From: an uncultured bacterium
Lineage (GTDB): Bacteria; Patescibacteriota; Minisyncoccia; Phycocordibacterales; Phycocordibacteraceae
Length of the DNA stretch: 34,049 nt
Direction: 5' to 3'
Assembly: GCA_903994795.1 (NCBI GenBank)
Contig: CAJEYI010000010.1
Span: 1 to 34,049, forward strand
The stretch's first letter is position 1; the number at the start of each line of letters is the position of its first letter. Made by a program: the position numbers and the translations under genes. Positions 7,696 to 23,280 of this stretch are shown in pieces. The notes beneath the pieces are model-generated. The model was not told the DNA's origin. It worked only from the letters and a program-made list of their open reading frames with translations, and ran no database searches.

Positions 7696-9000
7696 ATGGC
7701 AAAGGCATCACAAAAGTCAGTAGTTCCGGGCATTTCATTTGTGCAGGAATTAGATGGTATCTCTGAATACAGACTAGAATCAAACGGACTACGCATCCTC
7801 CTCAGCCCCGACACATCAGTACCTGTAGCTGGGTGCATGATTACGTACCACGTCGGCTCACGAAACGAAGCCACTGGCTACACAGGCGCCACTCATCTCT
7901 TGGAGCACCTACTCTTTAAGGGCTCAACTAATTTCAATAAAGAAAACCACAAAACTGCATGGGAACTGCTCGAGGCAAAAGGTGCGCATGTAAACGCAAG
8001 CACGTGGTTTGACCGTACAAACTACTACGCGGTCTTTCCCAGCGAACTCCTCCCAGACGCAGTTGCACTTGAGGCAGATCGCATGCGCAACGCATTTTTA
8101 ACTGAAGAAGATCGCTCAGGCGAAATGCCAATTGTGCGAAATGAATTTGAGCGAGGTGAGAATCTTCCAGCAGAAGCACTCGATAAGCAGGTGTGGGCAA
8201 CAGCATTTCAAGCGCACCCATACCATACTTCAACGATTGGATGGAGAAGTGACATAGAGCAAGTCTCAATCGAACGCCTACAACAGTTCTATAACGATTT
8301 CTATTGGCCTAACAACGCAACAGTAACTATTGCAGGGAATTTTGATGTACGCGAGACGCTTGCACTTGTAAAAAAGGAATTTGGTGTACATCCGAAATCA
8401 CCAATGCCATTTCCTGCGATGTATACTGATGAACCAAAGCAGGAAGGTCAGCGCCGCACAACCGTACATCGAGCAGGTGTAAACATGATTGCGATTGCAC
8501 ACAAAACTCCTGAAGGAAACCACGAAGACATTCCTGCACTTTTAATGCTTTCACTTATTCTCTCAGAAGACAAAACGAGCCGACTATACAAAGCACTTGT
8601 AGACAACGCAAAGGCAACTGACGCAAGCATTTACTGCTGGCAGTTACATGATCCTGCGCTTTTTGAAGCATTCGTAACACTTGCCCCAAAGACCACACAT
8701 GAGCAAGCAGAAAAAATTGTATTAGCAGAGTACGAAAAGATTATTCAAAAAGGCGTAAAGACTGCAGAACTTGCACGTATAAAACGCATGGTACGAACGT
8801 ATTTCGCAACTCGTCGGGACGGACCATACGCATTTCTATCTAGTCTTAATGAAGACCTTGCGACAGGTGACTGGACACGATTTGTCACACTTCCCGAAGC
8901 ACTTCAAAAAGTCACAAGCAAAGACATTCAGCGAGTCGCAAAGAAGTACCTTGTAAAAGACCAATCAACAATTGGGTGGTTTATCAATACCGCTGTATAG
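7696..9000 (+). CDS. M16 family zinc metallopeptidase (catalytic type)
   Basis: HxxEH motif in GATHLLEHLLFKG; downstream E-containing region; TATTCT 6 nt upstream of ATG. Confidence 0.93.
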   Translation: MAKASQKSVVPGISFVQELDGISEYRLESNGLRILLSPDTSVPVAGCMITYHVGSRNEATGYTGATHLLEHLLFKGSTNFNKENHKTAWELLEAKGAHVNASTWFDRTNYYAVFPSELLPDAVALEADRMRNAFLTEEDRSGEMPIVRNEFERGENLPAEALDKQVWATAFQAHPYHTSTIGWRSDIEQVSIERLQQFYNDFYWPNNATVTIAGNFDVRETLALVKKEFGVHPKSPMPFPAMYTDEPKQEGQRRTTVHRAGVNMIAIAHKTPEGNHEDIPALLMLSLILSEDKTSRLYKALVDNAKATDASIYCWQLHDPALFEAFVTLAPKTTHEQAEKIVLAEYEKIIQKGVKTAELARIKRMVRTYFATRRDGPYAFLSSLNEDLATGDWTRFVTLPEALQKVTSKDIQRVAKKYLVKDQSTIGWFINTAV

Positions 9001-23011: not shown

Positions 23012-23046
23012 AAAACTCAGCAAAAGTTTAGAACTACTTTAGTTTT
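23012..23046 (+). terminator. Possible grpE terminator (bulged stem, T-rich end)
   Basis: AAAACT(CAGCA)AAAGT...ACTTTAGTTTTT; imperfect. Confidence 0.35.
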
Positions 23047-23063
23047 TATTCATGGTGCTTTTT

Positions 23064-23069
23064 TATACT
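23064..23069 (+). promoter_or_regulatory. -10 element for the tRNA-like RNA
   Basis: TATACT, 7 nt before the first acceptor base (23077); no clear -35. Confidence 0.5.
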
Positions 23070-23076
23070 ATGAATA

Positions 23077-23146
23077 GCTGGCGGTTATTGGAACAAGTTT
23101 ACCTGACAGTCTAACTTAGAGGGTTCGATTCCTTCCGCCAGCACCA
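23077..23146 (+). ncRNA. Non-canonical tRNA-like RNA with encoded CCA
   Basis: Acceptor GCTGGCG/CGCCAGC (7 bp) + ACCA; GTT-ATTGG-AAC mini-arm; AAGTT-TACCTGACAGTCT-AACTT arm; 1-nt spacer; T-arm GAGGG-TTCGATT-CCTTC. All 70 nt are accounted for, but D and anticodon arms are atypical. Confidence 0.6.
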
Positions 23147-23155
23147 GCAGATTTG

Positions 23156-23183
23156 TTGACATCAAAAACGCTTGATATAAAAT
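23156..23183 (+). promoter_or_regulatory. sigma70-type promoter for a small RNA
   Basis: TTGACA (23156-23161), 16-nt spacer, TAAAAT (23178-23183). Confidence 0.75.
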
Positions 23184-23189
23184 AGTAGG

Positions 23190-23266
23190 TAAGGCTGTCA
23201 GGCCAATACTTTCGAACCCTCAAAAGTAACATCAAGCACCAGAGCAATCTGGTGCTTGTTGCTTTT
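23190..23266 (+). ncRNA. Putative small RNA with segments complementary to the adjacent tRNA-like RNA
   Basis: Consensus promoter upstream and intrinsic terminator at the 3' end; internal TACTTT-CGAACCCTCA-AAAGTA hairpin; no ORF. Confidence 0.65.
23233..23266 (+). terminator. Intrinsic terminator of the small RNA
   Basis: CAAGCACCAGA-GCAA-TCTGGTGCTTG (11-bp perfect stem, GNRA loop) then TTGCTTTT. Confidence 0.85.
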
Positions 23267-23280
23267 AGCTTTTGGTAGAT

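Follow-up and report, generated by a model that had tools for sequence, protein, structure and literature searches.

We report a family of predicted tandem RNA gene pairs from Patescibacteria, in which a tRNA-like RNA is followed by a small RNA complementary to it. Judging from which parts of the two RNAs are conserved, the small RNA is best read as the dedicated antisense RNA of a tRNA mimic. Natural competence is the likely setting of these mimics, because within the genus the promoter element in front of them recurs upstream of comEC and radC in carriers, though not in non-carriers, and tracks an OmpR-type regulator. Overall, we lean towards an explanation in which a regulated tRNA mimic, driven by a competence-linked promoter, is controlled by its own tandem antisense RNA. 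Each pair would then represent a natural, mutually specific RNA switch of ~200 bases, and the family suggests that an RNA switch not described so far is tied to natural transformation. The common promoter element provides a concrete, testable candidate for competence regulation in Patescibacteria.

A tRNA-like RNA and a complementary small RNA in the grpE-dnaK gap

The window, that is the whole stretch of 34,049 nt analysed here, carries both putative RNA genes between grpE and dnaK, with the following features:

23034–23069, + strand: P1, candidate promoter of the tRNA-like RNA, consisting of direct-repeat box CTACTTTAGTTTTTATTCATG (23034–23054), 4-nt gap, T-rich stretch and −10 box TATACT (23064–23069); position weight matrix (PWM)
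23077–23143, + strand: tRNA-like RNA; direct reading, family alignment and covariance models
23077–23083/23136–23142, + strand: acceptor stem of 7 bp, GCTGGCG/CGCCAGC; direct reading
23084–23094, + strand: stemless D-like segment containing TTGG; direct reading
23095–23117, + strand: anticodon-like arm AAGTT/AACTT with enlarged loop; direct reading
23102–23118, + strand: loop and 3' arm segment CCTGACAGTCTAACTTA, the target of the small RNA; inverted repeat I1, duplex computation
23119–23135, + strand: T arm GAGGG-TTCGATT-CCTTC; direct reading
23156–23183, + strand: P2, sigma70-like candidate promoter of the small RNA, TTGACA-N16-TAAAAT; direct reading
23186–23208, + strand: antisense element A' (TAGGTAAGGCTGTCAGG plus CCAATA), directed against arm/loop 23102–23118 and D-like segment 23086–23091; inverted repeats, duplexes
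23207–23228, + strand: small hairpin TACTTT/AAAGTA showing the anti-T-arm sequence TCGAACCCTC (23212–23221); repeats I10 and I5
23230–23270, + strand: terminator, a hairpin CATCAAGCACCAGA/TCTGGTGCTTGTTG closed by a GCAA loop, then a weak T-rich tail; repeat I3, direct reading

The tRNA-like RNA has A23143 as discriminator and is directly followed by an encoded CCA (23144–23146). Its 7-bp acceptor and 5-bp T arm with a TTCRANY loop are those of a tRNA, and all 12 of these pairs are intact in almost all family members. The cloverleaf of a canonical tRNA, with D stem and 7-nt anticodon loop, is not formed, as the D-like segment is stemless and the loop enlarged. ARAGORN called no tRNA in the window, and the family members of genome G085 are likewise absent from the ARAGORN list of that genome. 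Rfam at gathering thresholds yielded no match in the window, including the tmRNA model RF00023; the best sub-threshold likeness for the tRNA-like fold was mascRNA (RF01684; 25.5 bits versus a cut-off of 42.5). The BjrC68 sRNA model (RF02353) reached 30.5 bits, below its threshold of 39, with the terminator hairpin giving most of the score.

Transcription of the small RNA is expected to start near 23190. The first-pass annotation had proposed three pairings between the RNAs, namely of CTGTCAGG (23195–23202) with 23102–23109, of CCAATA (23203–23208) with 23086–23091 in the D-like segment and of TCGAACCCTC with 23119–23128 in the T arm. All three are present in the sequence as described, and the first is longer than originally noted, extending over 17 nt (23102–23118 with 23186–23202), of which 16 are paired when G-U is counted. 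The TTGACA (23156–23161) and TAAAAT (23178–23183) boxes and the hairpin displaying the anti-T-arm sequence were also found as annotated. For the proposed GNRA-loop terminator, the hairpin with its GCAA loop is there, with a weak T-run. A leaderless ORF (ATGAGG...) in the small RNA was set aside, being limited to one loop class.

In the window, the pair has a duplex energy 5.3 SD below mononucleotide shuffles, and the anti-T-arm element forms a second duplex with the T arm of −19.0 kcal/mol. Comparison with shuffled controls was less clear-cut for this pair with RNAcofold, which adds the cost of unfolding and is unable to include the pseudoknotted second helix: at −2.2 kcal/mol it is among the energetically weaker ones, and 12 of 500 dinucleotide shuffles were equally good. 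Across the family, the same programme separated cognate from non-cognate combinations, with means of −9.5 and −1.0 kcal/mol, respectively.

The pair belongs to a family of predicted tandem RNA genes

BLAST searches with the window in relatives returned weak matches on the T-arm side only, several of them at sites that are not tRNA genes and yet have the same layout. From this start, covariance models were built from 7 and later from 25 loci, and searches with them revealed ~40 similar tRNA-like RNAs. Within the genus of the window (Kaiserbacteria-type Patescibacteria), carriers account for 11 of 93 genomes/species (G018 included) with up to seven copies per genome, counts that represent lower bounds owing to the strict filters used in the many-genome searches. 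Members also occur outside the genus, in other families of the order (G313, G465, G145, G266, G223, G398 and G377), and one further genome in the rest of the phylum has a candidate covariance-model match. Matches in Elusimicrobia, Oscillospiraceae and Sphingomonas were discarded, since the covariance model gives them no score.

Downstream of nearly every tRNA-like RNA come a TTGACA promoter and a small RNA that can pair with the loop, 5' arm strand and D-like segment of that tRNA-like RNA. In the tabulated members, the acceptor and T-arm pairs are kept with few exceptions, often built from different bases (e.g. GCCATCG/CGGTGGC in L088 and AAGGG/CCCTT in L081). CCA is encoded in 4 of 41 tRNA-like RNAs. 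By BLAST, likeness to real tRNAs is confined to the 3' half, as might be expected of a decayed tRNA gene with a fortuitously complementary neighbour; however, ~40 independent loci with 12/12 intact pairs and matching partners speak against decay, and together with the covariation described below the family leaves chance complementarity as good as ruled out.

The placement between grpE and dnaK, to which significance had been attached initially, is incidental, since members adjoin many different housekeeping genes. As neighbours and orientation both vary, a 5'-UTR regulator of dnaK is ruled out as well. A second copy between grpE and dnaK (L087), in genome G034 of another species, lies at the same distance from grpE as in the window; its arm and antisense sequences are unlike those of the window, each matching its own partner.

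Cognate RNAs are mutually specific and co-vary

Specificity was assessed with 36 non-redundant pairs of tRNA-like and small RNAs. From 5' to 3', the small RNAs carry the anti-loop, anti-5'-arm-strand and anti-D-like sequences, a small hairpin and a second element, which is always located 3' of the first. At most loci this second element is directed against the 3' arm strand. In the window, L077, L088, L090 and L103 it is complementary to the T arm (for some of them as judged by inspection), and in the f58 loci L098, L125 and L126 to the 3' strand of the acceptor (likewise by inspection). As both elements are ordered like their targets, the two helices are mutually pseudoknotted, and the permuted order pointed out for the window thereby proved general across the loci of the family. 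Capture of real tRNAs through their GGTTCGA sequence, also considered in the first-pass annotation, is unlikely to be general: the anti-T-arm element is found in only about five loci, the others targeting the 3' arm strand or the acceptor.

Duplex energies of the 36 cognate pairs sum to −1242.6 kcal/mol, compared to a mean of −669 (SD 30) for permuted pairs and −827 kcal/mol for the best of 100,000 random re-pairings. For 28 of the 36 tRNA-like RNAs, the own small RNA ranked first. Ten loci share the loop CCTCATC, which makes the flanking helix comparable without alignment. At offsets 3–7 of this helix, AU, UA, CG, GC and GU are exchanged on both RNAs, and none of 20,000 permutations paired as well, a count that is not a strict probability as the ten loci are related. 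Extended complementarity is thus kept by compensatory change, as in antisense regulators, which bears out the earlier proposal that the small RNA is a partner that captures or remodels the tRNA-like RNA. The pairing is very probably under selection.

The tRNA-like RNA is the presumable effector

Acceptor and T arm show 76% ungapped identity across loci, whereas the likeness of the middle of the tRNA-like RNA and of the small RNA across loci equals that of shuffled controls. Since the conserved arms belong to the tRNA-like RNA, and all that is kept in the small RNA is its pairing, the presumably working part resides in the former. The reverse assignment, with the small RNA as effector and the tRNA-like RNA as its sponge or decoy, could appeal to P2 being closer to the sigma70 consensus than P1. 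It is nonetheless most improbable given that the sequence of the small RNA is conserved solely as complement of its neighbour and that nearly all of the small RNA upstream of the terminator takes part in pairing.

Strict tandem co-inheritance, the long pairing, the conserved non-nested order and the hairpin between the two elements would also fit a scenario in which both RNAs form one functional complex and pairing builds the active particle, as for tracrRNA with crRNA. We regard this as unlikely, because the second contact varies between 3' arm strand, T arm and acceptor and would disrupt the tRNA fold at a different place from one locus to the next, because the small RNA lacks a conserved part of its own, and because no associated protein gene was detected in the flanks of the loci. 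Moreover, tRNA-like copies without antisense RNA exist (L080, L083, L084 and L129). An inhibitory role of the antisense RNA appears probable to us.

The solo copies also show that the mimic is not obviously toxic. An RNA-only toxin-antitoxin module, in which the mimic stops growth and the tandem antisense RNA acts as antitoxin, would share the anatomy of a regulated effector with a constitutive neutralising antisense RNA, and multiple paralogues with private pairs would be in line with it. Tolerance of solo copies argues against strong toxicity, however, and with copies at conserved housekeeping sites and no match in viral contigs, where a single loop pattern was tried, we consider such a module improbable. 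The solo copies are located directly before ORFs (methyltransferase-like; an unknown 166-aa protein; a TypA-like GTPase). For solo L083, no trans partner was found in 94% of the G085 genome.

Could the tRNA-like RNAs be functional D-armless tRNAs with expanded anticodon loops, used for regulated mistranslation or frameshifting and masked at the anticodon by the antisense RNA? In the family alignment the loops fit U-R-N-Y-A with an invariant A, the distance from triplet to T stem is 14–15 nt as in real tRNAs, the triplets can be read as anticodons (GGU, GUC, GAC, GCC, AUC, GAU, GCU and AGU), and the encoded CCA of some members would agree. However, RNAs with different triplets have nearly the same acceptor, arms measure 6–10 bp and loops 7–10 nt, and G085 possesses ordinary Asp-GUC, Val-GAC, Gly-GCC and Ser-GCU tRNAs, making this very unlikely. 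We do not claim decoding because of the uniform acceptor and the long loops. Supply of missing tRNAs was rejected as well, as G085 has ordinary tRNAs for most loop triplets; a Thr-GGU tRNA was not found in the 94% of this genome examined. Replacement of tmRNA by the tRNA-like RNA is likewise ruled out: six carriers have a tmRNA, including the window's own genome (G000, C1:56170–56592), and four do not, i.e. in G034, G039, G085 and G010, some of them nearly complete genomes, none scored above the Rfam cut-off.

A direct-repeat promoter element is shared with competence genes

P2 recurs throughout the family: 34 of 36 loci have TTGA 28–36 nt ahead of the point where antisense pairing starts, and nearly all have TANNNT 5–13 nt ahead of it. 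Scoring P1 against a naive sigma70-type consensus did no better than shuffles, and the search that followed led to a direct-repeat motif. Aligned on the −10 box, which inflates the information content at this position, P1 of the family comprises the repeats CTTnAnG and CTTGATC spaced 11 bp apart. They end ~10 bp before the −10 box, whose own end lies 6–8 nt upstream of the RNA's first base. In the window, a PWM with flexible gap gave a score of 17.1 for P1 (99th percentile of the background, 8.2); the score of only 5.1 at fixed spacing in leave-one-out mode is explained by a spacer that is 1 nt shorter. Direct repeats with 11-bp period, ending ~10 bp before the −10 box and lacking a proper −35 box, are characteristic of promoters activated by PhoB/OmpR (pho box). 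The geometry of P1 matches this promoter type, while its repeat sequence differs.

P1 of the window is nearly identical to the promoter of comEC in its own genome. Using a matrix trained solely on 20 tRNA-like promoters, strong sites were detected before comEC in carriers G000, G039, G065 and G151, and a weaker one in G085 (11.4; background 99th percentile per 365 nt, 11.7). No such site was present before comEC of 18 non-carriers, with no score above 5.5. Hence, P1 precedes comEC in 5/9 carriers as compared to 0/18 non-carriers (Fisher p=0.0016), as in a competence regulon. Sites before radC were found in most carriers having this gene (G021, G039, G065, G085 and G151, as well as G034 with a 1-nt shorter spacer). 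When 772 genes of G085 were ranked by P1 score, radC came 2nd, a Pif1-like helicase 6th, pilM 7th and comEC 10th; the identities of RadC, ComEC and PilM derive from Pfam, and the scores of comEC and pilM (13.3) are modest. The genes concerned in G085, i.e. comEC, radC, possibly pilM and the helicase, are at C3:38618–40147(−), C2:130393–131127, C2:10579–11664 and C1:48266–49975. Further loci with the common element are L193–L194, L213–L214, L223–L225 and L227–L228. Taken together, the set has the appearance of a competence regulon present in some Kaiserbacteria. To our knowledge, regulation of natural transformation in Patescibacteria has not been described. Conservation of ComEC, DprA and ComFC extends across CPR, and Saccharibacteria have been shown to be naturally competent (PMC10633639). 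RadC also turns up in literature on competence regulons.

A gene for an OmpR-family response regulator adjoins radC in G085 (C2:131470–132138(−)) and is also located near radC in L223, L227 and L228. Histidine-kinase-like ORFs adjoin radC in L224, L225 and L226. Orthologues of the regulator (at least 57% identity) occur in 8/8 genomes with the P1 motif and in 1/20 non-carriers, and are absent from carriers G010, G017 and G054. From this co-occurrence, P1 is most likely activated by the OmpR/PhoB-type response regulator. G017, G054 and the other families of the order have pairs without regulator orthologue or P1 motif, and G010 lacks the regulator only; competence control is therefore not universal. 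Within the genus, we judge competence-linked control to be reasonably probable. Genome G064 has radC and the regulator, and no tRNA-like/antisense pair was detected in it.

A gene encoding an HTH/LAGLIDADG-like protein was rejected as regulator, since it belongs to a widespread multi-copy family. This HTH family (LAGLIDADG-like by eye; G085 C3:71062–71742(−) and homologues) is widespread in the genus, and its G085 copy carries the strongest P1-type site of that genome. In the window, a P1-like site with a score of 24.3 at 8691–8727 on the minus strand lies antisense inside a zinc peptidase gene and is not followed by a tRNA-like RNA; it probably reflects chance.

Working model and related systems

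In the scenario we propose, the first of two tandem genes would encode a tRNA mimic made up of a stemless D-like GG segment, an anticodon-like arm and the conserved acceptor and T arm. Its promoter, which shares an element with those of comEC, radC and probably pilM, would be regulated and most likely turned on by the OmpR/PhoB-type regulator. The second RNA, made from its own sigma70-like promoter, would serve as dedicated antisense RNA. Pairing may initiate between its 5' end and the loop of the mimic, as suggested by this end being free and loop-matching, and would then spread through the arm into the D-like segment over ~17–29 nt. In the process arm strands would be exchanged, both RNAs carrying the same arm sequences, while the second element would grip and open the 3' arm strand, the T arm or the acceptor. 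The duplex would unfold the mimic and probably expose a long double strand to RNase III. Thus the antisense RNA would hold the mimic off until induction outruns it. Once free, the mimic may engage factors that handle tRNAs (RNase P, RNase Z, the CCA enzyme, EF-Tu or the ribosome) and thereby alter translation in the competent state. Its target is a guess on our part, and a translation factor or the ribosome in particular is doubtful. A more far-reaching version, in which competence turns on mimics whose loops (mostly for GNY/ANY codons) enter translation and reprogramme synthesis, each silenced beforehand by its antisense RNA as an orthogonal switch, is a long shot.

Adjacent antisense RNAs are known from type I and RNA-only toxin-antitoxin pairs such as tisB/istR-1 and SdsR/RyeA, and tRNA-like modules are carried by YrlA and other Y RNAs. 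As in the toxin-antitoxin pairs and in CreTA (PMC8501985), where CreT acts on tRNAs, an effector RNA lies beside a neutralising RNA with ~20 nt of complementarity. Unlike in these systems, the putative effector is tRNA-shaped and has neither reading frame nor CRISPR partner, and the antisense RNA is encoded on the strand of its target, downstream of it and in permuted order. The pseudo-tRNA tRNA-Other of Bacillus cereus is likewise a regulated tRNA-like bacterial RNA outside translation and linked to stress genes, but it comes from only one locus, where it is part of a larger RNA, and has neither a tandem antisense RNA nor co-evolving pairs (PMC3399842). With tmRNA, the mimic shares acceptor and T arm on a stemless D-like segment leading into a longer helix; in contrast to tmRNA, which coexists in most carriers, it is only ~67 nt long and has no tag reading frame or mRNA domain. 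Y RNAs and mascRNA, the latter from animals, also use the tRNA-like fold outside translation but have no antisense partner, and a gene for a Ro protein was not observed next to any of the tRNA-like loci. We found no description of a tRNA-shaped effector with tandem antisense RNA in the open-licence literature, and Rfam has no model for it. Accordingly, we are aware of no described RNA family that combines such an effector with a dedicated tandem antisense RNA in permuted order.

Some loci depart from the common layout. In L072 and L079, both beside prfA-rpmE, a terminator separates the tRNA-like RNA from the antisense RNA, unlike in other members, and the loop of L072 itself contains the anti-T-arm sequence. 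In other families of the order (L097, L128, L098, L124, L125 and L100), a near-perfect hairpin immediately precedes the tRNA-like RNA and is a candidate leader, operator or terminator.
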